A DNA stretch of 49,226 nucleotides, from assembly GCA_015039465.1 (NCBI GenBank), contig MU130383.1, positions 1 to 49,226 on the forward strand, in the 5' to 3' direction. Made by a program: the position numbers and the translations under genes. Source of the stretch: Phlegmacium glaucopus (taxonomy: Eukaryota; Basidiomycota; Agaricomycetes; Agaricales; Cortinariaceae). The first letter of the stretch is position 1, and each line of letters begins with the position of its first letter. The notes beneath the pieces are model-generated. The model searched no databases. It saw only the letters and a program-made list of their open reading frames with translations, and had not been told where the DNA came from. Positions 3,490-49,077 of this stretch are shown in pieces.

Positions 3490-5770
3490 TGTAAGGGCGA
3501 CTGAAAGTCAGCTGGTCCTGATCAGGGTTGGGAGTTTGGTCAGGGCCAAATGTAACTGAAAATCATGTTGAAGCCGGGTGCACTAGCAGGAGATCCAAAG
3601 TTAATAAAATTATAAGTATCAACTACAGCTAACCCACCTAGCAGGAGATCCAAAGAGGAAAGGATGGGGATCTCTGCACTTAGAATTCCCAATGGAATTC
3701 AAATATTAGGTATATCATCAGCCAAATAACCAACTGACCTGATAAATCCCCTTAACAAATCACAGTTTGTAGGGGTCTTCCATTTTACTACACTATCAAC
3801 CTTATCAGGGTCCATGCAAATTCCATTCACATCAATTACTCTCCCTAAGAGCTTCATTTCTTCCAGTAGAAAAAAAAGTTTTCCCTTGCTTAGATATAGC
3901 TTTTCCATAGCCAATACATCCATAACAATCTTACAATGTTTGATATGGTCCTCTAGACTATCAGATATACATCCAAGAATCTCCCTAAGTAGGGTGAGAA
4001 TATATGATTCATTAGACTTTGATATGTAGCAGAGGCATTACAATCCCCCATTTGTAACTAAACTGACCATGTTACTGTCTGGCGTTGTTACTGCTGACTG
4101 TTCAACATGTTCAGATATTATCTGAATTTTTTCATACACTGCTGCTAAGTCCATCATAGATTGAAAGATCTTCACTACCACATGGCATAATACCCCTTCA
4201 ATGTCTGGTAAAGGAGAAGTCATCTTTACTGTGTTTTTATTTCTTTTATAAGTCATATACAGTTCTCAGCTCCTGCTGATCTTTTGGTTTATTGGGTTTT
4301 GGTATTAGTAACATAGGGACAGTATTTTGGGCAGTAGTCATTTTCCATTGACTGGACCTTAAGTAAGTGTCATGCTTTTCTACCCACTGCTCCCAAACAA
4401 TCTCAGGGCACCTAGATGCCCACCATTGATAGGTTTTATTCTCATCTATTAATGGAATAGAGTGATTTATGGCTCAAAACAGTGGTAATTCTGTTTCCTC
4501 AACTTTTTGACATAATGGCTCAGCATAAGCCATCAGTTCCTCATGGGCTCTTTCTATTTCAGGACTTAATGGTGATGTTGCTGCTAAGAGTGTTACATTC
4601 CGTCATACGTTACTCTGGTCCAGCTCCGTCGGAATTGTTTCCGGTAGTCCGTACTCCGTACAGTGCTTTCCCTTATATCCCGAACTACTCTTTCTATGTT
4701 CAACTCCGAGACTTCTCCGTGTCATTCCAATTCCTCCGCCTATACTCCAAACCCATTATCACTTCTTCGCCACTACCACTATTCTTTGTCATCATCTTTC
4801 CCATCATCAGTCAGCACACCAGCCATGGATTATTCACCCAAGAATGCAGGACCTTTCCCGGGAGCAGAACGCAGCACTTATATTTATATTCTATATTTTG
4901 GTTGCAATTCTCTTTATATTTAAAGTACTCGAACTTGTATGTTTTCCCTTAGTTCGAATATCAACTTAGTTCCCCTCCTCTTGTTTTCCCTCTAAGTCAC
5001 TGAGGTCTTCCGACTTGTTACTTTATTCTTCCGTTCCAAAATCAGGACACCTTAGGAGCTGGGCGGCACAGCACATACGCTGAGGCCAACGTCCTTTCCG
5101 GGTTACTGTTCCGGTTCCGTTCCGGAGTAACTCCGACGTGACTTCTCTCCTTTGCTTTAAACTTAACAAAGAGGACCTTAGTATCACTTCCGGATGCAAT
5201 CAGCAAAGCCTCTATGCTCCCAATCATGATTCATGCTGGATTCAACCCAATACATACCTAATGTTGATACATCCAAGGTGTACCTAAGATAAGGTCATAA
5301 TCATTTATATTCACCACATAAAATTGTTGTGAAGAATCTATATCCATGTATTTTAGCTGTGTTTCTATAGTAGAATTAATTTTTGCTTGTGATCCTTGCA
5401 CTGCCAATTGTAACCCAATAATCAATTGAATTCTCAAGTAACTTTTGTTTTATTTTCAACTGATCAACCAATGCTTGAACCAGATGTTCATTTATATATG
5501 CTTTGATCACTACAGGTTTTGGTAATTGTAAGGGCAACTGAAAGTCAGCTGGTCCCAATTGGGATTGGGAGTTTGTCCAAGTATTTGGTAGTTTGGGCCA
5601 AACATAACCAAAAGTCGGGTTGAAACCAGGCATGCTAGCAGGAGATCCAAAGTTAATAATATTATAAATATCAACTACTACTAACTCACCTAGCAGGAGA
5701 TCCAAAGAGCAAAGGATGGGGATCTCTACTAGGATAGGAAAGTATTTAAGTATGGACATATCAGACATAT
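3490..5770 (-). pseudogene. Degenerate Ty3/gypsy pol (protease and reverse transcriptase)
   Basis: Minus strand. About 5,770-5,235 encodes a gag-pol spacer and an aspartic-protease-like region (PKPVVIKAYINEHLVQALVD, then farther on NDYDLILGTPWMYQH). About 4,480-3,699 encodes the reverse-transcriptase region: NTVPMLLIPKPNKPK, TSPLPDIEGVL, then KLFFLLEEMKLLGRVIDVNG and KTPTNCDLLRGFI. These are hallmarks of agaricomycete Ty3-type pol. Several frameshifts are present. The protease active-site DSG and the polymerase YxDD are both missing through small deletions. RNase H and integrase are absent: after the RT end the sequence re-enters the gag-pol spacer. A solo LTR (4,591-5,168) interrupts the element. 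Dead copy. Confidence 0.85.
4591..5168 (+). mobile_element. Solo LTR, family 1, target duplication AAGAG
   Basis: It starts TGTTACATTC and ends AACTTAACA, giving the TGTTA...TAACA inverted ends of an LTR. It is 578 bp long and flanked by AAGAG on both sides (4,586-4,590 and 5,169-5,173). It interrupts the dead gypsy element in opposite orientation, so it arrived later. Internal sequence is absent, as expected after LTR-LTR recombination. Confidence 0.9.
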
Positions 5771-6166
5771 GAAAATAAATAAATAATGGTGTGATAACAA
5801 AATAATTAAAATGGTGTGATATGAAAATAAATAAAATAACAAGTCAAAGTTCTGTTCAGGTTTGGGCCCAAACAAAAGTCAGAAGTGATGAGTCAGGACT
5901 ACCTCTAATGAAGATCAGGAGGGGAGATGCTAGGGCCAACAATGGGGTGGGACATATAGGTTGCCAACTGGTTGATCCACCTGCCAATTTGGTTAAGCTA
6001 ACAACTGGTCCAGATATCTTTCCTTAGCCGACAAGGGAGACTTAGGTCCCCCACTCAGTTGGTTCCCGATGGGTGTCAGTCAGGAAGTAAATCCTGATTG
6101 GGCGGTGTAAGTAGAATGGAGTGTCCCCTTACAGTAATAGATAATCATTTGTGTTTTTAATGCGTG
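5771..6166. other. No gene seen; possible gypsy gag-side remnant
   Basis: This gap between two solo LTRs contains no convincing coding frame. It adjoins the upstream side of the dead gypsy element and is probably its decayed leader or gag region, but no gag motif is visible. Confidence 0.3.
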
Positions 6167-6744
6167 TGTTACATTCCGTTATATGTTACTCCGGTCCGGC
6201 TCCATCGGAGCTGTTTCCAGTAGTCCGTATTCCGTACAGTGCCTTCCCTTATATCCTGAACTACTCATCCTATGTTCAACTCCGAGACTTTTCCGTGTCA
6301 TTCCGGTTCCTCCGTCTATACTCCAAACCCGTTACCACTTCTTCGCCACTACCACTATTCTTTGTCATCATCCTTCCCACCATCAGTCAGCATACCCGCC
6401 ATGGATTATTCACCCAAGAATGCAGGACCTTTTCTGGGAGCAGAACACAGCACTTATATTTATATTCTATATTTTGGTTGCAATTCTTTTTATATTTAAA
6501 GTACTCGAACTTGTATGTTTTCCCTCAGTTCGAATATCAACTTAGTTTCCTCCTCTTGTTCATCCTCTAAGTCACTGAGGTCTTCCGACTTTCCATTCTC
6601 TTCCGTTTCCGAAATCAGGACATTGTAGGAGCTGGGCGGCACAGTACATACACTGAGGCCAAAGTCCTTTCTGTTACTTGTTCTGGTTCCGTTCCATCCG
6701 ATCCGGAGTAACTCTGACGTGACTTCCTTGTTTCAAACTTAACA
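6167..6744 (+). mobile_element. Solo LTR, family 1
   Basis: 578 bp, TGTTACATTC to AACTTAACA, strongly similar to the copies at 4,591 and 21,350. Flanks are GCGTG and GTGTG, a 4-of-5 target duplication match. It ends eight bases before the boundary of the large inverted duplication. Confidence 0.85.
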
Positions 6745-10020: not shown

Positions 10021-11300
10021 TTTGAAGTGCCGTTGAAGCGGAGAGGAGATATTGATTGAATCAGCCGTATCACGGTCTTGTCACTCATTGCCAAATTTGG
10101 AACCCAACCTTGGGGTTATCAGTGGTCTCCGAGATCACCGACCAACTTTTCCGGCAGGCGAGCTCGAGACCTTAGGTTTGTTCAGACATCAATTATTAGA
10201 CTAGCGGTCGACTTCGTCGACAAAATACCTTGCTGAATAATCAACAAACAAGCATGCTGGTTTTAGGAGCCTGATGCGACTGAGGTTTTTTTTAGTTTAG
10301 TTTGTTTTTTTATCTTTGTCTTTGAGTGAAAAGAAAGTTGAGACCGTAGCACTTATACGAGGGAGTTTGGAGACCAAACATGTACAAAAAATGGGTACAA
10401 CATTTCGGAGCTTTTAAGAGATTTAGACATGAATGAAATCGTATTGTATTTATTTGTGTTATACCATGATGTTGTACAACAACAAATGTTGAATTTAGAC
10501 CCGGGAGAAACCTTGCTTTACAGCAAGGTAATAAGCTCCCTCATAGTAAGAATAGCACTAGAATAGCTCGTGAGACGAGCGGCTGCTTTTAGGAGCCTGG
10601 CTCCTATCCTCTCCTATCATAAAACCAGCTTGCATCATCTGTTATCTTATCATATCTTTTTCATCAAAATATAAAGAAAGGCAAATCCATCTAATCGAGT
10701 TGGAGCATAAGGTTTGTTCATCAAAATATTTGTGTTATGTTTGTACACTGATAAATCATGCGATACGAGCGCGCTGGCAACGCGCTGGTTTTAGGAGGTT
10801 GGACCTTTTTTGGAAATTCCTTGATGGACAGAAATAACAAAGTCAAGTACTTGATGACCGTCAGACCCGGGTCAGACAAGCCTAGGGACTGGCGAGCCTG
10901 TTTGACGCCGAATATGAGCCTGCAGGATCTTGATGAGTATACGTCTACGCAATGCTCTTGACATTGTAGTTTACAATTATGGATGATAATCTATCGAGTC
11001 TCAACTAATCTCAACTATGATTCAGTATGAAGATCCTGGAGGCCAAGATCCGTCTGCAACCCTTTGCGGACCCTATTCAGCTAAACTTGATTGACAGATG
11101 GTCATATCAAACGCCACTGTGAATTTTGTTGTTCAAAACAAAATCCAAACGACTGTCACACACAAGATCGGATCTAACCTGTTACTAGACGACAACAGTC
11201 ACTGAGACGGTACATCAATCTTCATTTGCTATCAACCTTACGCACCCTTGCCTTCCAGCCCACCGCAGATATACATTCGATGCACAAATTGCAGGAAAAG
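10021..11300. other. Intergenic region with repeated GGTTTTAGGAG motif
   Basis: No supported gene. The motif ctggttttaggag or a close variant recurs near 10,257, 10,585 and 10,788, with cgctgg-type flanks, and the intervals between are AT-rich. A short open frame from 10,758 lacks any family resemblance. Upstream exons of the following GTPase gene could lie here, but I cannot place them. Confidence 0.35.
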
Positions 11301-11408
11301 TTTAGTCAGCTCATAAGTCAGATTCCGTTGCCAAAGCAAGTTGTTCACGGTCTCAGACTATCCTATTAGGTTCGAATCGACAGCCACCTACTGCAGGCCA
11401 GACTCAGG

Positions 11409-14400
11409 ATGCGTTTGGAGTGTTTCATACTTCAACAGGTTGGATTGTTTTCCCACATAATAGAGTCAAATTTCAGTTGTCTTGTAGGCGCAACATCACA
11501 ATCTGAATCAACATCAACTGCCTTGTCCGATGATCTTCGGTCCGAGGAAATTCAAATCATAGCCTATCGCTTTCGCGTTCTCGTGATAGGCCGAGCAAAT
11601 GCAGGCAAGACTACCATCCTTCAAAAGGTCTGCAATACGGCAGAGCAACCGGAGATATTCAATACCAAAGGGAAGAAGGTATGTCATTGCGCTGAAAAAA
11701 TTGATATAGAGGTAATGATGTCCATGAAATATGAATCATCAGATTAGAAGGTTGATACTCAAGCCTTCTGTGGAGGTATGTATGAGTTCGTGTTTCGCAT
11801 CGATGAACTTATATTATCTCAGCGCGGGATGCACAACATCGAGAATGAGCTGGTATTCAAGAGCAACCCTCGATTCATTTTCCACGATTCCCATGGTTTT
11901 GAGGCGGGAGGTATCGAGGAACTTAATAAAGTGAAACAATTCATAACAGAGAGATCGAAGATGGTCGACCTAAGTGAACAGTTACATGTCATATGGTGGG
12001 TTATCGTCAATGTGGAGTTTTGTCCGATCCATTTCTTGCTTCTATAGGTACTGCATCCCGATGGATGACGAAAGGCCATTCACAGCAGCAGAGCTGAATT
12101 TCTTTGGAGAGAGCGGTACAGGGGGTGGTGAGCATTAGATTGTTGGGTGTTTGTGGAAATCATCGTCTGAAGGACATTTTTTGCAGTTCCAGTAGTCGCG
12201 ATATTCACTAAATTTGATGCATTAGAAGATGTAGCATATGGCAAGCTGACAAAAGAGGGTATCCTTCCTGCCGATGCAGTCAAACAGACAGCCGATCGCG
12301 CGGTGACCGACTTCGAAAAGGAATATTTACCTATCTTTCACAAGCTGAAATTTCCTCCAAAAGGTTATGTATATTTGCGAGGTAATGCAAGCATTTCAGT
12401 GCCTATGTTTGTGGTGACAGAAGTTAATAGTCAAGTTCTAGATATGAACAAACCCAAAGCAGATTGTCATCGACTGGCGGACACTGTAGCAGCAGTGCTA
12501 GAGAACACTGATTTAAAGCGGTTGTTTGTGTCTATACAGCGAAACAATCTAGAGCTATCCATCAGGTACATGGTGGAAAGGTGATATTGTTTGACTGAAT
12601 TTATTCCACATGTTGCACACTCAACAAACCATTCCCCAGTGAATTGATCCCAGAAATTTTGAAGACTGGAGATCAGGAGCAACCAAGTGCTGTTATACAT
12701 ACTTTTTTCCAGAGAAAGATGGCAAGATGGTTTCCACATTGTGTGGTGAATATTGTTCCTTAATTGTTGTGAACATAAGACTAACATTTGCAACACAGAG
12801 TAGCTATTAAGAACTATTGGAAAACATCAACATTAACTGTAATCTTTGCAGTCGGTAAGCATCTAATTTATATCCCACCATGCATGAATTCCTGGGCCAC
12901 AACATATTCCCAACTGATCATGAGTTTGTTTTCTGTGGTGCATCAACAGGAAGTAAGTCATTGATTCCAGGGCTAGAACATTCTGTCCACTCATCATGGG
13001 TTTGACTTCTCTGATGCCTCAACAGGGAGTAAGTCATTGATTTCTTTGTTGGAACATCAAGTCTGCATCCTCTGATACCTCAACAGCCAGTAAGTCATTG
13101 ATTCCTGTCCTGGCACATTCCATCATGACTTTACTTTCTCTGGTGCCACAACAGTTGGTAAGACATTGATTCCTGTCATGGAGCACTCTGTATACTCATC
13201 ATGAGTTAACTTTCTCTGATGCCTCAACAGGGAGTAAGGCATCAATTTCTGTCTCAGAACATTCTGTACTCAGCATGAGTTTGCTTTCTCTGGTGCATAA
13301 ACAGAAAGTAGGTCATTGATTGCTGTCATGGAACATTCTGTGCACTCATCATGAGTTTGCTTTCTCTGGTCTCTCAACAGAATGTAAGTGATTGATTGCT
13401 GTCATGGGACATTCGGTCTACTTATGAAGTGTTTGCTTTGTCTGGTGTTTCAACAGTTTGTAAGTCATTGATTCTTGTCCTGGGACATTCTGTACACTCA
13501 TCATGAGTTTGCTTGCTCTGGTACCTCAACAGGGAGTAAGTCATTCATGCCTGTCATGGGACATTCTGTGCACTCATCATGAGTTTGCTTGCTCTGGTCC
13601 CTCAACAGGTTGTAAGTGATTGATTGCTGTCCTGGGACATTCTCTCTACTCATCATGAGTCTGGTTTCTCTGGTTCTCAACAGCTTGTAAGTCATTGTTT
13701 CCTGTCCTGAAATATTCTGTGCACCCATCATGTTTTTATTTCTCTGGTGCATCAACAGGATGTAGGTCATTGACTCTTCTCCTAGAACATTATGTGCACT
13801 CATAATCAGTTGGCTTCTCTGGTGCCTTAAAAGGCAGTAAGTCATTGATTCCTGTCCTGGGACATTCTGTCCACTCATCATGAGTTTGTGTTCTCTGGTT
13901 CCACAACAGACTGTAGGTCATTGACTTCTGTCCTGGAAGATTTTGTCCACTCATCATGTTTCTGTTTCTCTGGTGTGTCAACAGTCTGTAAGTGATTTAC
14001 TCCTGTCCTGGGACATTCTGTCCACTCATGATGAGTTTCTCTGGCACCTCAACAGAGAGTAAGGGATTGATTCTTGTCCTGGGACATTTGGTCCACTCAT
14101 CATGACCTTGCTTGCTCTGGTGCCCCAATAGTATGCAAGTCATTGATTCCTGTCATGGAAATTTCTGTGCACTCATCATGAGTTTGCTTTCTATGATCCC
14201 TCAACAGATAGTAGGTCATTGATTGCCACCCTGGAACAGTCTGTCCACTCATTATGAGGTTGCTTTCTCTGGTGCCTCAACAGATTGTAGGTCATTGACT
14301 CCTGTCCTGGAAGATTTTGTCCACTCATCATGTTTTTGTTTCTCTGGTGCATCAACAGGATGTAGGTCATTGATTCCTCTCCTAGAACATTCTGTGCACT

Positions 14401-17400
14401 CATCATGAATTTTTTTCTTTGCTGCCTTAACAGGAAGTAAGTTGTTGATTCCTGTCTTGGGACATTCTGTGCACTCATCATGAGTTTGCTTTCTCTTGTG
14501 CCTCAACAGGGAGTAAGTGATTGATTCCTGTCCTGGAACATTCTGTCCACTCATTATGGGTTTGCTTTCTCTGGTGCCTCAACAGATTGTAAGTGATTGA
14601 TTCCTGTCCTGGAACCTTCTATCCTCTCATCATGAGTCTGCTTTCTCTGGCACCTCAACAGAGAGTAAGGGATTGATGCCTGTCCTGCAACCTTCTGTGT
14701 ACTCATCATGAGTTTGCTTGCTCTGGTCCCTCAACAGAGAGTAAGTGATTGATTCCTGTCCTGGAACATTCTGTGCACTCATCATGTGTTTGTTTCTCTG
14801 GTCCCTCAACAGAAAGTATGTGATTGATTCCTGTCCTGGAACATTCTGTCCACTGATCATGAGTTTGCCTTCTCTGGTCCCTCAACAGCGAGTAAGTCAT
14901 TGATTGCTGCCCCAGAATATTCTCTGCACTCATCATGAGTGTCCTGTCTCTGGTGCCTCAACAGCAAGTAAGTCATTGATTTCTGCCCTGGAACATTTTG
15001 TCCACTCATAATGAGTTTGCCTTCTCTGGTCCCTCAACAGGGAGTAAGTCATTGATTTCCGTCCTGCAACATTCTGTCCACTCATTATTGGTTTGTTTTC
15101 TCTGGTGTTTCAACAGACAGTAAGTAATTGATTTCTGCTTTGGAATATTCTGTGCACTCATCATGAGTTTGCTTTCTCTGATGCCCCAACAGGGAGTAAG
15201 GTGTTAATTCCTGTCCTGGGACATTCTGTGCACTCATCATGAATTTGTTTTCTCTGGTGCTTCAACAGGCAGTAAGTCATTGATTCCTGTCCTCAAACAT
15301 TGTGTACTCAGCATGAGTTTGTTTTCTCTGGTGCATCAACAGAGAGTAAGTCATTTATGCCTGTCATGGGACATTCTGTGCACTCATGATGAGTTTCCTT
15401 TCTCTGGCACCTCAACAGGTTGTAAGTGATTGATTGATGTCCTGGGACATTCTCTCTACTCATAATGAGTCTGGTTTCTCTGGTTATCAACAGCTTGTAA
15501 GTCATTGTTTCCTGTCCTGAAATATTCTGTGCACTCATCATGAGCTTGCTTTCTCTGTTCCCCTAACAGGGAGTAAGTCATTGATTCCTGGTCTGGGACA
15601 TTCTATCCACTCATCATGAGTTTGCTTGCTCTGGTGTCTCAACAGATTGTAAGTCATTGATTCCTGTCCTGGAACATTCCATCATGAGTGTGTTTTCTCT
15701 GCCACCTCAACAGGGAGTAAGTGATTGATTCCTGTCCTGGAACCTTCTGTGCACTCATCATGAGTTTGCTTTCTCTGGTCCCTCAACAGAGTGTGAGTCA
15801 TTTATTCCTCTCCTGGGTTATTCTGTGTACTCATCATGAGTTTTCTTTCTCTGGTCCCTCAACAGCGAGTAAGTCATTGATTCCTGTCCTCAGACATTTT
15901 GTCCACTCAGCATGAGTTTTGCTTGCTCTGATGTCTCAATAGCTTGTAAGTCATTGCTTCTGGTCATGGGCCATTCTGTGCACTCATGATGAGTTTGTTT
16001 TCTCTGGCACCTCAACAGGATGTAAGTCATTGATTTCTGGTCTGAGACACTCTGTACACTGATTATGAGTTTGCTTTCTCTGGTCTCTCAAAAGCTTGTA
16101 AGTGATTGATTGCTATCCTGGGACATTCTGTCTACTTATCATGAGATTGCTTTGTCTGGTGTCTCATCAGCTTGTAAGTCATTGTTTCCTGTCCTGAAAT
16201 ATTCTGTGCACTCATCATGAGTTTGCTTTCTGTGGTCCTTCAACAGCAAGTAAGTGATTGATTCCTGTCCTGGGATGTTCTGTGCACTTATCATGAGTTT
16301 TTTGTCTCTGGGACCTCAACAGAAAGTAAGTGATTTATGCATGGGACATTCTGTCTACTCTTTGTTTTCTCTGATGGCTCAACAGGGAGTAAGTAATTGA
16401 TTCCTGTCCTGGGACATTCTGTGCACTCATCACTAATTTTCCTTCTCTGGTGCCTTAATAGGAAGTAAGTGATTGATTCCTGTCCTGGAACATTCTGTGC
16501 ACTTATGATGAGCTTGCTTTCTCTGGTGCCTCAACAGACAGTAAGTGATTGATTCCTGTTCTGTAAAATTCCATGCACCCATAGTGATCTTGCTTGCTCT
16601 GGCATCTCAACAGCTTGTCAGTCATTGATTCCTGGTCTGAACATTCTGTACACCTATCCTGAGTTTGCTTTCTCTCATGTGTCAACAGGCAGTAAGTCAT
16701 TTATTCCTGTCCTGAGATGTTCTGTCCACTCATCATGACGTTGCCTTCTCTGGTTTCTGAACAGGAAGTAAGTCATTTATTCCTGTTCTGGAATATTCTG
16801 TACACTCATCATGAGTCTGGTTTCTCTGATGCCTCAACAGGCAGTCAGTCATTGATTCCTGTCCTGTGACATTCTGTGCACTCATTCTGAGTTAACTTTT
16901 CTGGGTGCCTCAACAGAATGTAAGTGACTGATCCTTGTCCTGGAACCTTCTGTGCACTCATCATGAGTTTTCTTTCTCTGGCACCTTAACAGAGAGTAAG
17001 GGATTGATTCCTGTCCTTGAATATTCTGTTCACTCATCATGGGTTTGCTTTCTCTGGTCCATTCACAGTTTGTAAGTCATTGATTCCTGTCTGGGAACAT
17101 TCTATGCACTCATCATGAATTTGGTTTCTCTGGTAACTCACCAGAGTGTAAGGGATTGATTCCTGTCCTGGAACATTCTGTCCACTGATCATGAGTTTGC
17201 TTTCTCTGGTCCCTCAACAGCGAGTAAGTGATCAATTCCTGTCCTAGAACATTCTGTGCACTCATCATGAGTTTGCTTTCTCTGGTCCCTCAACAGCAAG
17301 TCAGTGATTCATTCCTGTCCTGGACATTCTGTCCACTCATGATGAGTTTTCCATCTCTGGTGCCTCAATAGCGAGTAAGTCATTAATTCCTGTCCTGGAA

Positions 17401-19563
17401 CATTCTGTCCACTTATCATTAGTTTGGTTTCTCTGGTGCCTCAACAGTTTGTAAGTCATTTATTCCTGTTCTGATATATTCTGTCGGGCCATCCACTCAT
17501 TATGAGTTTGCTTTCTCTGGCTCCCTAACAGATTGTAAGTATTGATATCCGTCTAGGAACACTATGTCAACTCAACCATGACATTGCTTTCTCTGGTCCC
17601 TCAACAGCGAGTAAGTCATTGATTCTTGTCCTTGGACATTCCCTCCACTTATCATGAGTTTGTTTTCTCTGGTTTATTAACAGGAAGTAAGTGATTGATT
17701 CCTGTTCTGGGACATTCTGTGCACTCATCATGAGTTTGCTTTCTCTGGTGCATAAATAGAAAGTAAGTCATTTATTCCTGTCTTGGAACATTCTGTGCAC
17801 TCATGAAGAGTTTGCTTTCTCTGTTGTCTCAATAGCTTGTAAGTCATTACTTTGTGTCCTGAAATATTCTGTCCATTTATCATGAGTTTTCTTTCTCTGG
17901 TGCATTAACAGAAAGTAAGTGATTGATTTCTGTCCACTCATTATAAGTTTGCTTTCTCTGATGCCTCAACAGGATGTAAGCCATTCTTTCCTCTCCTGGC
18001 ACATTCTGTGCACTCATCATGAGTTGCTTTCTCTGGTGCTTCAACAGCGAGTGAGTCATTGATTCCCATCCTGGAACCATCTGTCCACTCATTATAAGGT
18101 TTGCTTTCTCTTGTGCCTCAACAGGATGTAAGTGACTGATTCCTTGCCTGGAAAATTCTGTGCCCTCATCATGAGTTCACCTTCTCTGGTCTCTCTATAG
18201 CAAGTAAGTCATTGATTTCTGTCGTGGAGTGTTCTGTGCACTCATTATGAGTTTTCTTTCTCTGGTGCCTTAACAGCAAGTCAGTCATTTATTCCTGTCC
18301 TAGGACCATTCTGTGCACTTATCATGAGTTTTCTTTCTCTGGTCCATCAACAGTTTGTAAGTGATTGATTCCTGTCCTGCAACATCTGTGCACTCATCTT
18401 TCTCTGGTGCATCAACAGGATGTAGGGCATTTATTCCTCTCCTAGAACATTCTGTCCACTCATCATGAGTTTGGTTTCTCTGGCATTCAACAGGTTGTAA
18501 GTGATTGATTCCTGCTCTGGAATATTTTGTCCACTTATCATGAGTTTGCCTTCTCTGGTGCCTCAACAGCTTGTAAGTCATTGAATTTTGTCCTGGAATA
18601 TTCTGTTTATTCATCATGAGTTTGCTTTCTCTGGTGCCTTCACAGCAAGTAAGTGATTGATTTCTGTCCACTCATTATAAGTTTGCTTTCTGATGCCTCA
18701 GCAGGATGTAAACCATTCTTTCCTCTCCTGGCACATTCTGTGCACTCATCATGAGTTTGCTTTCTCCACTCTCTGAATAGAAAGTAAGTCATTGATCTAT
18801 GTCCTGGAACATTCTGTGCACTCATCATAAGTTTGCTTTCTCTGATGGCCTAACAGCAAGTAAGTGGTTGATATCTGTCCCAGGATGATTTGTCCACTTA
18901 TCATGAGTTTTATTTCTCTGGTGTCATGATAGTTTGTAAGTGATTGACTCTGTTCAACTATAAAATATTATGATTTTCAACCTTTCCTTTTAGATTGTAA
19001 TTATTTCACCTTTATTATTCACCTTTATGAATATTTAAATTAATTGGATTTGATAAACACCAGGCATGTATCTATTTATTTATTTTTTGTGGCATTTCTT
19101 CATATATTATTTTACTAGAATGTAAGTGCAATGTTTTCTCAAGAGAAAATTTGTTGGTATGTGTGGCACAATAAATATCCTTAGCAATGTTACCTTTGTG
19201 ATATTTTTTTCTACAGTTTTAGGGCAATGAATTTCTGTGTCTCTCTAGCTATACAAGATAAGCCAACTGGACATCCAATTCTTATTTGTGAGTGTTGTTA
19301 ATCATACCTAATTTTTGCAGCCTCAGAATATTATTTATTCTTAGATTGGTTCTTCTACTGCAAAGCAAAAAATTGCTGGGTTTGGTATTGGTCTGTGATT
19401 ATCCATGATTTCTATTTTATTCTATTTTCATTTCAATACAGCATTTTCTATCATTCTGGAGTATTCATTTTATTTGTGGGACAAAGCACCATCATCCAGT
19501 CTCAAGTACTTGGCCTCTGCAATTGATGTTTACAAGTCATCTGGAAAGCATGTTCAGCTGTAG
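11409..19563 (+). CDS. P-loop GTPase gene with 3-nt microexon array in its middle
   Basis: Ordinary exons: 11,409-11,678, 11,743-11,775, 11,823-11,995, 12,048-12,127, 12,187-12,381, 12,442-12,580, 12,655-12,745; then 84 three-base exons (12,852-19,121); then 19,249-19,287, 19,345-19,384 and 19,442-19,563. Motifs: P-loop VLVIGRANAGKTT, switch-like HDSHGFEAGG, base-recognition FTKFD, then ARWFPHC before the array. After it come LYKISQLDIQFLF and a C-terminal helical region AFSIILEYSFYLWDKAPSSS. It belongs to the same broad family as copies A and B but to a divergent branch. The start is uncertain: the ATG at 11,409 reads through, but an alternative uses an intron from about 11,440 to 11,488 and an upstream frame (PPTAGQTQDAFGVFHTST). 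The stop at 19,561 may reflect a frameshift, since family-like sequence continues in another frame. Confidence 0.7.
12852..19121 (+). repeat. Tandem array of ~73-nt introns and 3-nt microexons
   Basis: Unit: NNN-GTAAGTcattgattcctg ... cactcatcatgagtttgc ... ctctggtgcctCAACAG. Of 80 intervals between microexons 1 and 81, 54 are exactly 76 bp; the rest span 59-84 bp. AG precedes the triplet in 84/84; GT follows in 83/84 (GC at 14,135); GTAAGT is exact in 58. The triplet length is always 3. The introns contain CTCAT branch-like motifs and a pyrimidine-rich tract before AG. Microexon starts: 12852 12950 13026 13087 13155 13231 13305 13381 13457 13533 13609 13684 13759 13834 13910 13985 14056 14132 14208 14284 14359 14434 14510 14586 14662 14738 14813 14889 14965 15041 15117 15193 15269 15343 15419 15494 15570 15646 15714 15790 15866 15943 16019 16095 16171 16247 16323 16386 16462 16538 16614 16689 16765 16841 16917 16993 17069 17145 17221 17297 17372 17448 17532 17608 17684 17760 17836 17912 17973 18048 18125 18201 18277 18354 18419 18494 18570 18646 18705 18781 18857 18933 18994 19119. 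Confidence 0.9.
19249..19287 (+). other. First ordinary exon after the microexon array
   Basis: The exon follows ctctctag and ends before gtgagtg. Its 39 bases read LYKISQLDIQFLF in phase 0, exactly the phase produced by an upstream exon ending in phase 0 plus any number of 3-nt exons. The next introns (19,288-19,344 and 19,385-19,441) are both 57 nt, typical for the organism. The following exons continue IGSSTAKQKIAGF and AFSIILEYSFYLWDK without a break. Confidence 0.7.
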
Positions 19564-20789: not shown

Positions 20790-22220
20790 GTTTGCCTCAA
20801 TGTTCTTATCATCTGGCCACAATTGTAGAAATGGCTCATTTGGGATGCTTTCTGTGACTGATTCTGAGGCTGAGCCCTTTGAGACACCAGTGTTATGGTT
20901 ATATTCAGAGCTGGGGGTATATATCTTTCTCAAGCAGAATCCTGTTCTGAATAGGAATAGATTGGATGAATTCTGGCCTCAAATGTTATCATCTGGCTGC
21001 AGTTGTAGAAATGGTCTGTTGGGATCCTGTCTGGGACTGATCCCAAGGGTGAGCCCTTTGATACCAATGTCATAGTTTGGTAGAATACTTAACCCAAACA
21101 CTTCTGCAGAATCCAGACTTGCCTCAGTATTAGTACTCAAGAATAAATGACTGGTATGTGGAGCTGTGGATATATATTCTCTGCGGAATCTCAATGAGTG
21201 AAATTGTGGCTTCAAGAAATTTGGGATGCTTTCTGTGACTGATTCTGAGGTTGAGCCCTTTTGAGACACCAATGTCATGGTTTGAGAATATTTAATCTAA
21301 ATACTTCCACAGAATCCAGACTTGCCTCTGTATTAGTACTTGGGAATAATGTTACATTCCGTTATATGTGACTCTGGTCCAGCTCCTTGGGGTTGTCTCC
21401 ATACTCCATACTCCATTCCAGTATCCTCCCTTGTCTCCGGATCTATTCTTTCTACATCCAACTCCGAGACTTCTCCATGTCATTCCAACTCTTCTGACAA
21501 TACTCCAAACCCATTACCACTTCTTTGTCATAACAACTATTTCTTTGTCATCACTTTCCCATTATCAGTCAGCACACCACTATCGGATTATTCACCCAAG
21601 AATGCAGGACCTTCTGGGAGCAGAGCGCAGTACTTTATATTTATCCTTTATGTTTTGGTTGCTATTTCTTATTATTATTTAAGTACTCAAAACTTGTATA
21701 TTTTCCTCAGTTTGAATATCAACTTAGTTCCCCACTCTTGTTTCATCCTCTAAGTCACTGAGGTCTTCCGTCTTATTCCGTTTCTCTTCTGGTTCCGAAA
21801 TCAGGACATCTTAGGAGCTGGGCGGCACAGCATATACGCTGAGGCCAAAGTCCTTTCCGTTACTTGTTCCGGTTCCGTTCCATCTGTTCCGGAGTTACTC
21901 CATCGTTACACCTTGTTCAGAACTTAACAAATAAATAACTAGTATGCAGAGCTGCGGATATATATTCTCTGTGGAATCTCAATTCGAGTGAAATTCCGGC
22001 TTCAAGAGACTGATTAGTTATTGCTGGTAGAATACCTAATTTAAACACTTGCGGAATGTGGAGGGATATTGATCTTAAACTCAGGTTAAACATCAAACTT
22101 GTTTCCACAGCTATTAAGATCGCTCAAACATGTTTCATGGTGGTTTTACATGGAATAGATTCTCAGAATGGTGCTCTGAATAGGTTAGATGAATTCTAAA
22201 CTCCTGCTGAACTGGAATAG
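20790..22220. repeat. Tandem ~190-bp repeat interrupted by a solo LTR
   Basis: Related blocks containing gggatgctttctgtgactga and gagccctttgagacacc recur near 20,840, 21,021 and 21,220, with linked blocks such as gatatatattctctg at about 21,170 and 21,957. The solo LTR at 21,350-21,929 splits one unit. Small minus-strand open frames repeating ESVTESIPN follow the repeat and are not supported as genes. Confidence 0.6.
21350..21929 (+). mobile_element. Solo LTR, family 1, target duplication AATAA
   Basis: 580 bp from TGTTACATTC to AACTTAACA, flanked by AATAA at 21,345-21,349 and 21,930-21,934. Removing it restores continuity of the surrounding 190-bp repeat (compare caagaataaatgactggtat near 21,140 with the junction), which confirms the boundaries. 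Confidence 0.92.
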
Positions 22221-25167: not shown

Positions 25168-27111
25168 TTATACATTTTCTACATTTTCAATGTAATCTGA
25201 TTGCTTCATCCATCCATTAAATCCCTGGTTCCTTTGAAACTTTTGCGAAATAAATTCCAATACCTTTCTGTGGAAGTATTGAACTAGGCAGAACCTGTCA
25301 CCATCGCCGTCAACTTCCCCAACGCTGTGTGCCAGCACCTTGCCACAGAGCCCAATAATTGTCCCAGGATTATATTGGAACTGTAGACCAATTCCAGGAA
25401 CCTCCAATCGACCATTGGTATAATGGCCCAAAGTCGTGATAATATCATAAAATGGTGCAAACCCCTTTCCATCGTGATGCAAAACAGTCTCTCAATTGGA
25501 GAGAATGGAAAACGAGGTAAAGGGAGAGGGCCAAAGCACTCTTTCCAGCCACAGAGAATTTGTTGCTACATTGGTAATTTCCCCATTTTTAATGGCACAG
25601 AGAATTGAAAATGCCCGCACAGCCAGCTTGGGATGGATTATTGCCAAGATGGCACTGAGCAAGGATAAGGATTCCAAATTGGCACACAGATATTGAATAA
25701 TGGGGGAGCAGGGCCAGCCGTGGAGGGACCCAGAGACAGACAACTGGTGCACAACATTGAACCAACATGGTGAAAAGGGTATGTGGCCAGCTGAAGTGGG
25801 TGTAGTCCCAGCAGCCTTATACCCCTTCTCCCACCATTTCAGACTCTTTTTTTTTTTTTAATTCCAATTAAAGTCCTGTGTGGCAATGCCCTATGTTGGA
25901 CTGCTACACTAATGTTACTCTAGTTTGATATGGACTCGTGTGTATCTGACTATGTGAACGGGTGGTGGCCTTCTAAGAAGATGTGCAGAAGTGTAATTAT
26001 GGGTGTATCGTAATGTAGAAATGAAGAGAGAAAAGCTGATAGTTACGGGACTTCCTGTTATTATTATTTCAGACTCTTGGATTGGGAAACCTCTGGAAGG
26101 CTTCCTTTGAAAATCTTGTCAAGGTTGTGCATCCTCCCAGTCATTTTAAGCTTGTATATAGTTAGTAAATTTGTAAATAATCCAATAAGGTTGAATGTAC
26201 GTTCCGGGATGTAGTGATCGCACCGGGCAGGTACCAAAGCACTATAATCCCACAGGAATCAACCATGGTACAGGGAATGTCTTGCAGTGGTAGGCAGTGC
26301 CCTTCCCTAGCGGTAAAGAGGGGCAGAAATCTCTTCCATAGCGAAGCCTCACTTTCCTCCATACCAATATTTTGACAAGTGGTGTTAAGTTCAAAACAAG
26401 GGGTCACGTCGGAGTAACACCGGATCGGACGGAACGGAACCGGAACAAGTAACAGAAAGGACTTTGGCCTCAGCGTATGTGCTGTGCCGCCCAGCTCCTA
26501 CAATGTCCTGATTTTGGGAATGGAAGAGAATGGAAAGTTGGAAGATCTCAGTGACTTAGAGGATGAACAAGAGGAGGAAACTAAGATGATATTTGAACTG
26601 AGGGAAAACATACAAGTTTGAGTACTTTAAATATAAAAGGAATTGCAACCGAAATATAGAATATAAATATAAGTGCTGCGTTCTGCTCCCAGAAAAGGTC
26701 CTGCATTCTTGGGTGAATAATCCATGGCTGGTGTGCTGACTGATAGTGGGAAAGATGACAAAGGAATAGTTGTTATGACAAAGGTGTGGTAAGGGGTTTG
26801 GGATATTGTTGGAAGAGTTGGAGTGATATGGAGAAGTCTCGGAGTTGGACGTAGGAGGAGTAGAGTCAGAGACAAGGGAAAGTACTGGAACGGAGTATGG
26901 ACTACCGGAAACAACTCCGACGGAGTCGGACCGGAGTAATGTGTGACGGAATGTAACAAGTGGTCAATGAGTTGGCATATGCCTCAATTGGCCAGGGAAG
27001 GTGGACTTGGGAAATGTTTGAGGCTGGCCAGCTAGAAAGGTTGTTGGACTTACTGGGGTTGTGGAAGGCCTTGTAGACTTGACCTACAATCATTTCACAG
27101 TCCTTTAGCAA
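25168..27111 (-). pseudogene. 2-oxoglutarate/Fe(II) dioxygenase-like gene, disrupted
   Basis: Read on the minus strand: a start near 27,111 (MLKDCEMIVGQVYKAFHNPS), then WPIEAYANSLT up to 26,959. After a 576-bp solo LTR the same frame resumes (TCQNIGMEESEAS, then IIVLWYLPGAI) at about 26,382-26,160. The catalytic part lies at 25,752-25,168: APFTSFSILSN-type sequence (here SPFTSFSILSN), HHDG (HxD iron ligands), RLEVPGIGLQFQYNPGTI, distal His in VLAHSV, and GDRFCLV (Arg for 2-oxoglutarate). This layout resembles dioxygenases expanded in mushroom genomes, including TET/JBP-like ones associated with transposons; that subfamily link is inference. Damage: the solo LTR insertion, and TGA at 25,492-25,494 just before HHDG, likely from CGA. 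The middle region (25,760-26,150) is poorly preserved. Confidence 0.65.
26383..26958 (-). mobile_element. Solo LTR, family 1, inside dioxygenase gene, TSD AGTGG
   Basis: 576 bp, inverse orientation: starts TGTTAAGTTC, ends GAATGTAACA. AGTGG flanks it at 26,378-26,382 and 26,959-26,963. Deleting the LTR and one target copy rejoins the dioxygenase reading frame (ANSLT to TCQNIG), so it landed in coding sequence. Confidence 0.93.
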
Positions 27112-46161: not shown

Positions 46162-49077
46162 ATGAGCCCTTCTGCAGCGTTCAATTTAGGGACAAGTGAC
46201 CCTGACGCACCTTTCGAATTCGAAGATATTTCGCACCCTAACCACCATTGGCCATCCATCAATCGAGAGGAAGGACTTCCTTTACACTACATGTCAGAAG
46301 AAAAGTCTTGAGGAAGAGTCAAGGCCTCGACAGGGTCGGTGCTTGGAGAGTATGACCAACAAGAGCGCTACGGCGATTACTATGATGACGAGGGCAAAGA
46401 CGTCTACAACAAAATACGCCCTGAGAGTGCTCGTCTACCACAACCTCCATTGCCGCCCCCAACATCTGTTGTAAGTCCATTTCTTTTGAACACATTGACC
46501 AGGCCTAACTGTTTCCAGACGGAATTTATTCTTCAAAATCTCGAACACCTCCCACCCATTATCTACACTCTTCTATCCTGTTGGACGAGGTTCCACAAAA
46601 TTGGTGCATCCAATGCTGTCTTTTGGGATGAAGCTCACTTTCGCAAATTTGGTACGCATTATCTCAAACGCGAGTTTTACTTTGATGTCCATCCACCGCT
46701 TGGGAAGATGCTTGTGGGATTTGCAGGTCTGCTGGCAGGCGATGATGGGAACTTCGAATTTAAGAGCGGAGAGGTGTACCCTGACAATGTCCCATATATT
46801 GCCATGCATGTCATGCTTGCCACGTTCGGTGTAGGCATGGTACCTTTGGCTTGGTATACGGCTGCCATAGAGTTGGGCATGAGTCAGTGGTCTTGCCATC
46901 TAACGGCTCTAATGGTACTTCTTGGTAAACATTTCATGTTTTGAACTGCTCCCTTGTCTAAATCTTTGCTGTTCAGATCTCGGTTGGCTATGCATATCTC
47001 GGTTCATCCTCCTGGATTCTATGCTTCTGTTCTTCACATTCCTTACTGTTTTCTGTTTAACAAAATTCCACAACGAACAATACGAGTAAGATCTCTACAA
47101 TTGTCTCTCTATACACCTTGTAATGACGGAAACATTTCATAGCTCGTTTTGTATCGACTGGTGGATATGGTTATTCCTCACTGGAGTTTCTATCGGTTGT
47201 GTAACAAGGTCTTTTTCAACCTTTCCTCTTACTAGCCCCTCAATACTAACGATTTCCAGTGTAAAAATGATCGGACTTTTCGTGACGGCTCTCGTCGGTG
47301 TATACACCATTGAGGACCTTTGAGAAAAGTTTGGAGATGCTAAAATGCCTATAGTAAGCGTCTTTTACGAAGGCCTCACACAGAACTTGGCCTAACGCTT
47401 TCACAGCGCGACCAAGCGAAACAGTGGGGTGCTCGAATATTCTGTCTTATCATCGTGCCGATCCTTGTCTTTATGGCCTCTTTCAAAATCCATTTCTTGG
47501 TGCTCAATCACACTGGACCTGGCGATGCTCAAATGAGCTCTCTCTTCCAAGCTAATCTTGAAGGCAACGATTTCGCCAAAAACCCTCTCGGTATACTTTC
47601 CGTTTTTCATATTTCTACCTTGTGTTTAACCACTGGAGAGCAGAAGTCGCGTATGGTTCGAAGCTCACCCTCAAAAACATGGGTTGGGGTGGCGGACTTC
47701 TTCATTCACACGTCCAAACATACCCTCTCGGTTCGAATCAACAACAAGTTACCTGCTACCACTACAAGGACGACAACAACAAATTCACTATCCTGCCTCG
47801 ATGGGATGAACCCCCTTACAACCCAAACGACGCTATGAGGTTCCTCAAGAATGGTGACATCATTAGATTGAACCATGTTCCAACGACACGCAACCTTCAT
47901 TCGCACACCGTTTTGGCGCCTGTTTCAAAATTGAACTATGATGTTTCGTGTTATGGAAACGAGACAGTCGGTGATAAGCATGATTATTGGAGGATTGAAG
48001 TCGTGGATGATATCAACCGAGGCACTAACATCGATCGAATCCACTCACTCACGACTCGTTTGAGGATCAAGCATGAAGCTCTGGGATGTTATCTGCGTGC
48101 TGCGAATGCTGTTCTTCCGCAGTGGGGTTTCAAGCAGATCGAGGTTAGCTGTGATAAGGAGAATAATCCAAACGATGCGCACACGTACTGGAATGTGGAG
48201 AGTCATTGGAATGACCGCTGTAGGTGCTTCGATGACGTGTTTAACCGTTGATAGTCCTCACAACCTTCTTTTTTTGTTCACAGTACCTGCTGGCGATCAC
48301 AAGTTATATAATTCACCTTTCCTCCGCGACTTCTCGCACCTCAATGTGGCGATGATGACATCCAACAATGCTCTCGTCCCCGACCCCGACAAGGAAGATA
48401 TCCTCGCATCCAAACCTTTTGATTGGCCTTTCCTCCATCTCGGTTTGAGGATGTGTGGTTGGGGAGACGCTCATATCAAGTACTACCTAATGGGAACGCC
48501 AGTCGTCTGGTGGGCTAGTACGCTTAGTCTATTCGTTGCTTTTGCTACTTTGGGGGTATACCTTCTGAGATATCAGAGGAAGTATATTGATATGGATACT
48601 CGTGAGTTGTGATTTTCTGAATTCGGAGCATGGTTGGTTGTTGACGAAATTTTGTAAGGCGAATGGGATCATTTCCTATATGTCGGGAAAATAGCATTCT
48701 ATGGGTGGGCCTTCCACTTTGGTGAGTTCGAGTGCAAATGTGCGCGTTCAAATCTCATTATCTCTTAGTGCCTTTCTTGATCATGGGACGTGTAACGTAT
48801 CTTCACCACTATGTATGTTTGTTCTTGTCTATTGTTCGCGATACAACCCTGACTTTCTTTCTACTTTTCCAGCTACCAACGCTATACTTCTCCGTCCTGA
48901 TGCTGTCACACGTCCTGGATCATTTCATATTTTCTTCAAAGCGATATACAAAGAAAACAATGAATATAGTATTCGGTGTGTTGGCATTCATTATCGTCTT
49001 TACCTTCTGGCGGTTCAAAGGGGTTGTTTTCGGAATCACCGGACCTATCGCAGAATACAAGGGACTACAATGGAGGA
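46162..49077 (+). pseudogene. Protein O-mannosyltransferase (Pmt2-like), copy 2, nearly full length
   Basis: Pmt enzymes in the ER membrane transfer mannose from dolichyl-phosphate mannose to Ser/Thr of secretory proteins. Start MSPSAAFNLGTSDPDAPFEF at 46,162. Conserved regions in order: GASNAVFWDEAHF (acidic catalytic loop with the DE pair) near 46,610, YFDVHPPLGKMLVGFAGLLA near 46,685, several membrane segments, the MIR region (GGLLHSHVQTYPLGS, LHSHTVLAPVS), [20 protein letters not shown] near 48,345, GLRMCGWGD near 48,450, and C-terminal membrane segments to GLQWRK before a donor at 49,078. At least eight introns of 45-65 nt. Lesions: TGA at 46,309-46,311 (codon 50) and TGA at 47,321-47,323 where copy 1 has TGG. 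Otherwise well preserved, so recent inactivation or sequence error is possible. Confidence 0.85.

Follow-up and report, generated by a model that had tools for sequence, protein, structure and literature searches.

Codon-sized (3-bp) microexons were reportedly described in 2012 by Iotti et al. in the nank family of the truffle Tuber melanosporum. In later papers, as far as their available parts go, these NACHT-ANK genes are cited as carrying dozens of alternatively spliced 3-bp exons (PMC4986451, PMC10197012, PMC9815663, PMC3689799). Here, we analyse a stretch of 49,226 nt (contig C149:1-49226; hereafter the window) from the 60.5 Mb genome of the basidiomycete Phlegmacium glaucopus, and we consider it highly probable that it holds a fungal GTPase gene, the middle of which is cut into 84 one-codon exons whose predicted splicing, in full or in part, would yield a hypervariable segment, likely for non-self recognition. 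The fungus, also named Cortinarius glaucopus (Agaricales, Cortinariaceae), is ectomycorrhizal.

The micro-exon genes of schistosomes have many short exons, with lengths divisible by three but each longer than one codon, and encode variable proteins; we know of no homogenised tandem array among their exons. Fungal introner-like elements are near-identical introns multiplied in one genome, which is also what the arrays described here look like. However, introners are complete GT...AG intron copies in unrelated genes, whereas the arrays consist of tandem intron-plus-codon units, have hybrid introns at their edges and, among the matches listed, occur only in these gene families (the array DNA of what we call family 1 below was found only at family-1 loci). 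In the HNWD/NWD WD-repeat recognition genes of Podospora anserina, the available part of one paper describes high repeat identity, exchange within and between genes, and diversity in few codons (PMC4986451). Internal repeat identity, exchange and diversity confined to few codons are shared with the arrays here, but the conserved repeat frame of HNWD/NWD, as described there, is protein, whereas here it is the intron, with the sole codon between introns kept.

The truffle genes are the closest counterpart: like the window gene with its 84, they have dozens of exons of just 3 bp, belong to an expanded fungal family, and carry these exons in a stretch taken as the recognition part. We note three differences. 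First, the truffle host is an ascomycete NLR receptor with NACHT and ankyrin domains, whereas the host here is a basidiomycete G-domain GTPase that matches P-loop GTPase families. Second, the exons here occur in at least 48 arrays with two dissimilar intron families. Third, alternative splicing is cited for the truffle microexons, whereas the genes here are known from DNA alone. The original prediction for the window had claimed that no gene with such an architecture was described; that claim falls, since the 3-bp exons of the truffle receptors are cited in print and the architecture principle is thus already known. What is new, as far as our literature searches go, is the phylum, the gene family, the scale, and the decoupling of triplets from introns; the searches found no title on one-codon exons in basidiomycete GTPases, and the truffle case only as cited.

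One-codon exons in the window gene and its paralogues

The 84 microexons of exactly 3 nt that the original prediction had set between 12,852 and 19,121 could all be placed, as TCG at 12,852, 81 tandem triplets with starts from 12,950 to 18,933, ATT at 18,994 and AAT at 19,119. The spliced model, with exon boundaries chosen by hand favouring GT-AG and guided by paralogue alignments and public models, has 96 exons and 95 introns (47-127 nt, median 73) and forms a single open frame of 493 codons from ATG to stop; its 458-codon core contains 23 and 26 stops in the two alternative frames. The triplets meet the G-domain exons (11,280-12,745) and the C-terminal exons (19,249-19,563) in phase 0.

At least 48 one-codon-exon arrays are present in the P. 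glaucopus genome, mostly inside GTPase genes. Family 1 consists of the window array and seven sister arrays with the same intron in paralogues of the window gene (9-31 triplets, counting the first 3-nt exon where present; the 5′ side of locus L033 is N); one more copy, L038, is truncated. Family 2, found by pattern search, consists of at least 40 array clusters with a dissimilar 53-nt intron and a unit of 56 nt; a G-domain exon lies within 3 kb upstream in 38 of these, a C-terminal exon downstream in 37, and both, on the same strand, in 35. The matched span of family 2 is 88,936 bp, i.e., an estimated ~1,590 units from the best matches listed, in which 40 of the 47 candidates were scored. The arrays read in detail were eight of family 1 (235 triplets) and 12 of the 40 of family 2 (526 triplets); these 20 arrays hold 9-101 exons each, some being clipped by the ends of the fetched stretch. 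The array DNA of either family does not find that of the other among the matches listed, although homology is seen between the proteins of the two families, with 37-40% identity in one G-domain exon. Patterns for three further acceptor/donor types revealed no third array family. Isolated pairs of 3-nt exon patterns lie outside both families at C93:116814-116896 and C16:32269-32356, and on the 3′ side of family-2 arrays extra 3-nt exons with different introns were seen, TAT in 13 of 13 pattern matches and then a variable triplet.

Around the window triplets, the acceptor AG is intact in 84/84 cases and the donor GT in 83/84, the remaining one being GC, exactly as had been claimed, and the predicted unit length of 59-84 bp also holds once one spurious overlapping match at 15,121 is left out. 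The unit finder requires AG and G[TC], so that conservation of those columns is built in; no interval inside the 81-unit array exceeds 84 bp, showing that no unit there has lost its sites. With a per-site departure rate of 0.135 in this array, ~22 departures would be expected in the 162 donor bases, whereas one was seen, and the chance of all 81 acceptors staying intact is ~6e-11. The claimed invariance of the 3-nt gap holds for all 84 window exons, and in a scan of 0-12 nt the distance from AG to donor is 3 in 213/215 family-1 and 463/468 family-2 motif matches. A per-position divergence profile, named beforehand as a test that could refute the prediction, came out for splice-site conservation: only four columns are invariant in the 54 standard-length window introns, namely G+1, A+41, A-2 and G-1. 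A+41 lies in CTCAT, 32 nt ahead of the intron end, is not demanded by the finder, unlike the other three, and is likely the branch-point A. Of 80 window introns, 71 have a yTnAy motif 15-45 nt ahead of their end; family 2 has no individual branch column as conspicuous as A+41 is in the window.

The triplets also behave as codons. Both families together contain 2 in-frame stops in 761 triplets, compared with ~72 expected from shuffling every triplet column within arrays: 1/235 in family 1 (expected 21.6, standard deviation (sd) 3.1; minimum of 5,000 shuffles 9) and 1/526 in family 2 (expected 50.0, sd 5.1; minimum of 5,000 shuffles 28). This depletion is confined to the gene's frame, as the stops seen in the other two frames match order-shuffled values (2 vs. 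3.2, 28 vs. 28.5, 26 vs. 28.7 and 85 vs. 80.4). Read from the sequence, the exact 3-nt exons, the kept splice positions with their likely branch A, the phase 0 junctions and the scarcity of in-frame stops can be taken as established; together with the stop depletion in two intron families and the open frame of the whole gene, the splice and branch positions strongly support the predicted selection for splicing, and also selection for translation, of one-codon exons. For the joined 81-aa array peptide, no relative was found among proteins of similar length, to which the comparison was limited, and no Pfam family was matched.

Codon usage in the triplets is skewed. All 196 codons for Asp, Phe, His, Asn, Tyr and Cys have T as their third base, and the third base is C in 3 of 761 triplets, which is unlike an ordinary exon; since CG is missing from both consensus introns, CpG decay and a preference in splicing may each play a part. 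For several amino acids, e.g., Gly (GGA, 23/24) and Gln (CAA, 29/30) in family 1 and Leu (TTG, 65/73) in family 2, synonymous choice is strongly skewed and not the same in both families; it is mixed in family 2 for Arg (AGA 19, AGG 19), Lys (AAG 17, AAA 12) and Ala (6 and 6). The skewed, family-specific choice is better explained by a long-standing pool of codon units than by random mutation alone. The first base is C in 24/526 family-2 triplets (L047-L058) and in 61/235 family-1 triplets.

Divergence of triplets and introns

The triplets had been described as the most variable part of the unit, and this holds on average: the diversity of the three triplet columns in the window is 0.72, 0.72 and 0.49, compared with a mean of 0.225 over the intron body, though single body columns reach 0.66. 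With its diverged introns, the window array is an older one, in which the triplet-to-body ratio is ~3. In four young arrays (L031, L032, L033 and L035), by comparison, intron body diversity is 0.010-0.019 and the triplet columns reach 0.41-0.75, introns inside young arrays being 98-99% identical. When pairs of units of exactly 76 nt with letter-identical introns after the triplet were compared, the triplet differed in 288 of 318 pairs (49/66, 80/87, 26/28 and 133/137).

The same decoupling is seen between loci. The flanking introns of L031 and L033 are 1.1% apart, yet aligning the triplet orders of these two loci gives no higher score than shuffled orders do (P 0.745); among the 28 pairs of family-1 arrays, a single triplet alignment score reached P ≤0.05 (L036 with the window array, 0.025). 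The comparison of paralogues establishes near-identical introns with unrelated triplets between them. In 27 of the 28 locus pairs, the array introns are less diverged than the flanking introns, which points to homogenisation of introns across loci. Furthermore, the introns at array edges are hybrids in which only the 3′ part or the 5′ start matches the array unit, the outcome to be expected if intron-plus-codon units were duplicated in tandem.

Neighbouring triplets are more alike than shuffled ones in 3 of 20 arrays (P <0.05); adjacent triplets are thus mostly no more alike than chance, and there is little sign that triplets were recently copied in tandem. In a check of four arrays for block repeats of at least four triplets, 4 blocks were present in L056 (mean 1.14 and maximum 5 after shuffling) and none in the window array, L055 or L057. 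Of 14 tests of linkage between triplet and intron, two gave low P values (window array, upstream, 0.006; young family-1 arrays, within locus and downstream, 0.011), and 12 gave values above 0.05. The triplet is linked to its flanking intron weakly at best, even in old arrays.

The host protein, its relatives and the layout of the window

By its fold, the host is a G-domain GTPase. The G-domain exons of the window give weak P-loop GTPase matches below Pfam cut-offs, and the spliced paralogue L034 scores 20.7 bits for MMR_HSR1, under the cut-off of 21.9, which was passed by four of eight scanned proteins (P0064, P0097, P0099 and P0109). Across 58-69% of its length, L034 shares 81-94% identity with models P0001-P0004 of the public P. 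glaucopus annotation. Neither NACHT nor ankyrin was matched in spliced L034 or in the eight scanned proteins, and a single NACHT match on the window P-loop exon (E 0.038) reaches 14.3 bits against a cut-off of 26.7.

None of the public P. glaucopus models found represents the window gene, and on three contigs the public annotation splits paralogues into two proteins (P0003/P0123, P0004/P0125 and P0005/P0121). Continuous proteins spanning both halves are P0036 of Laccaria bicolor, P0109 of Suillus brevipes, P0008, P0097 and P0099. All five have an insert of 37-51 residues, with borders placed by eye, between WFPH (YFQH in P0036) and the C-terminal domain; in P0025, P0032, P0055 and P0083 the insert after WFPH is absent or short. 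The insert is variable and, like many array peptides, of narrow, low-complexity composition. Its entropy in the five relatives is 3.0-3.3 bits, compared with 1.9-3.9 for array peptides, and it is the lowest of all windows of the same protein in four of them, the exception being P0097. P0008 has 458 residues and comes from a 1,727-nt contig, which is probably complementary DNA. Homology of the C-terminal part was found between P0008 and P0121 and between P0036 and P0123 (BLASTP E 5e-10, one comparison each). The predicted structure of P0008 has a G domain followed by helices, with the insert modelled at lower confidence. IRG is among the top Foldseek matches, with a TM-score of ~0.3 and a root-mean-square deviation of ~15 or more over the full length. 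For IRG and dynamin-like GTPases, TM-scores are ~0.3 and alignments that extend past the G domain have a deviation of ~15 or more, values that do not place the protein in either group.

The exons of the window gene and other features of the window are collected in the table below. Rfam and tRNA scans of the window gave no matches. The 10-nt deletion in the last exon shifts the frame, so that the window copy stops earlier than seven aligned paralogues.

Table. Features of the window (positions count from its first nucleotide)
Feature	Position	Strand	Remarks
Two N-terminal exons	11280-11316 (start ATG), 11370-11438	+	Putative, GT-AG; matches N-terminus of a paralogue's public model P0001
Seven G-domain GTPase exons (span)	11488-12745	+	Single open frame, GT-AG
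G-domain exons 1-4	11488-11678 (P-loop GRANAGKT), 11743-11775, 11823-11995, 12048-12127	+	
G-domain exons 5-7	12187-12381, 12442-12580, 12640-12745 (last residues WFPHCV)	+	
First 3-nt exon, TCG	12852-12854	+	TGG, TTG or GTG at the equivalent place in seven loci (L031, L032, L034-L038); N in L033
81 tandem 3-nt exons	12950-18935	+	Introns ~73 nt (GTAAGT...CTCAT...CAACAG)
3-nt exon ATT	18994-18996	+	Same letters in all eight aligned family-1 loci
3-nt exon AAT	19119-19121	+	GAT in seven aligned paralogues
39-nt exon LYKISQLDIQFLF	19249-19287	+	Phase 0 on both sides; frame agrees with a paralogue's public model P0121
46-nt exon IGSSTAKQKIAGFGI	19345-19390	+	Supported by open frame and a paralogue's public model
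C-terminal exon through stop	19442-19563	+	10-nt deletion near 19,552 relative to seven aligned paralogues
Protein O-mannosyltransferase gene pieces	46312-48251	+	PMT E 2.8e-33, MIR E 1.2e-28
Large duplication, inverted	6754-9600/38265-41101		~90% identity
Large duplication	41487-43589/46985-49125		~90% identity
Dispersed repeat, ~530-580 bp	4590-5123, 6166-6744, 21350-21929, 26383-26958		82-90% identical; also beside L034

Proposed mechanism and alternative explanations

From these patterns we infer the splicing of the one-codon exons, and by analogy with other systems a recognition function. The short introns would be removed singly by intron definition, and since all array exons are 3 nt long, any skipped exon would keep the frame. 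Frame-neutral skipping could then yield, for each gene, either one long peptide or a family of shortened peptides. Arrays would change in size by unequal exchange, and their introns would be homogenised within and between loci, while the triplets would diverge by diversifying selection or by mutation aimed at them. If it resembles the NACHT-ANK receptors of Tuber and further expanded families of fungal recognition genes, the resulting segment may be the sensor surface of a GTPase switch.

Several observations speak against this proposal. The recognition function is suggested by analogy. There is an in-frame TGA in L035 and an in-frame TAG in L052, and the yTnAy motif is absent at 15-45 nt from the end in 9 of 80 window introns. 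Intervals longer than 95 bp contain a 2-nt exon (L034), a GG donor (L036), a GG acceptor (L050) and a deleted exon (L053). Insertions interrupt the arrays of L036 (4312-6307) and L051 (83-814), and the L038 copy is truncated, an insertion ending its array from about 5080; the L036 and L038 insertions share a common ACAACTCCGTGGTCTCTTT-type sequence. A reversed control of the two-unit pattern gave 19 + 19 matches (per strand), compared with 77 + 96 for the pattern itself. Finally, given the frameshift in its last exon, the window copy may be losing function.

The alternative that survives best is that every triplet is always included, so that each gene makes one fixed peptide and diversity lies between genes or strains rather than between transcripts. 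The splice sites look uniformly near consensus and there are hardly any stop triplets, which is what reading of nearly all triplets would give; however, skipping would be expected of near-identical tandem sites that lie 3 nt apart, and alternative splicing is cited for the truffle microexons, and we regard full inclusion as plausible but somewhat on the improbable side. We are a little more doubtful that diversity stems from triplet-directed mutation and not from exchange with diversifying selection. Such a process would account for the differing triplets before letter-identical introns (288/318), for the weak linkage to flanking introns even in old arrays, and for the lack of shared triplet order beyond chance in L031 and L033 despite the 1.1% difference of their flanking introns. 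In contrast, random mutation would scramble the strong family-specific synonymous skew seen for several amino acids, though others are mixed, and the lower divergence of array introns in 27/28 locus pairs indicates that intron homogenisation also acts.

Two further explanations fare much worse. It is very unlikely that an intron-like element was inserted between all codons of an older continuous exon, since, despite the near-identity of young-array introns, the hybrid edge introns look like the outcome of tandem duplication with the triplet inside, and third-base C in 3/761 triplets would not be expected of an ordinary exon. Least credible of all is an untranslated array, i.e., a satellite within one long intron or between two genes: public paralogue models do stop at or before the array and restart beyond it as separate proteins, and a direct join of 12,745 to 19,249 is also in frame, but stops are depleted only in the frame set by both flanks, splice and branch positions are conserved, the halves form one protein in Laccaria, Suillus, P0008, P0097 and P0099, and the same pattern occurs with two dissimilar introns.

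Returning to the proposed spliced, hypervariable segment, a bolder version, which we put forward tentatively and think rather unlikely in full, is a codon-by-codon recognition system, in which some fifty GTPase genes would carry interchangeable one-codon cassettes diversified by exchange, by triplet-directed diversification and by combinatorial skipping. The recognition peptide would then be rewritten in very short evolutionary times, and, judging by the relatives in Laccaria and Suillus, the system would be widespread in Agaricomycetes.

One-codon exons are close to the smallest size that the spliceosome can recognise, and here dozens of them stand in series between introns that are near-copies of each other. 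If spliced as predicted, these genes would offer a natural setting in which to study intron definition and how order is kept among identical splice sites, and they would be a second fungal system of one-codon exons besides the truffle receptors. Since the public annotation cuts this GTPase family in two in P. glaucopus, such genes may have escaped notice elsewhere. With hypervariable codons decoupled from near-identical introns, how recognition diversity arises can be tested directly.

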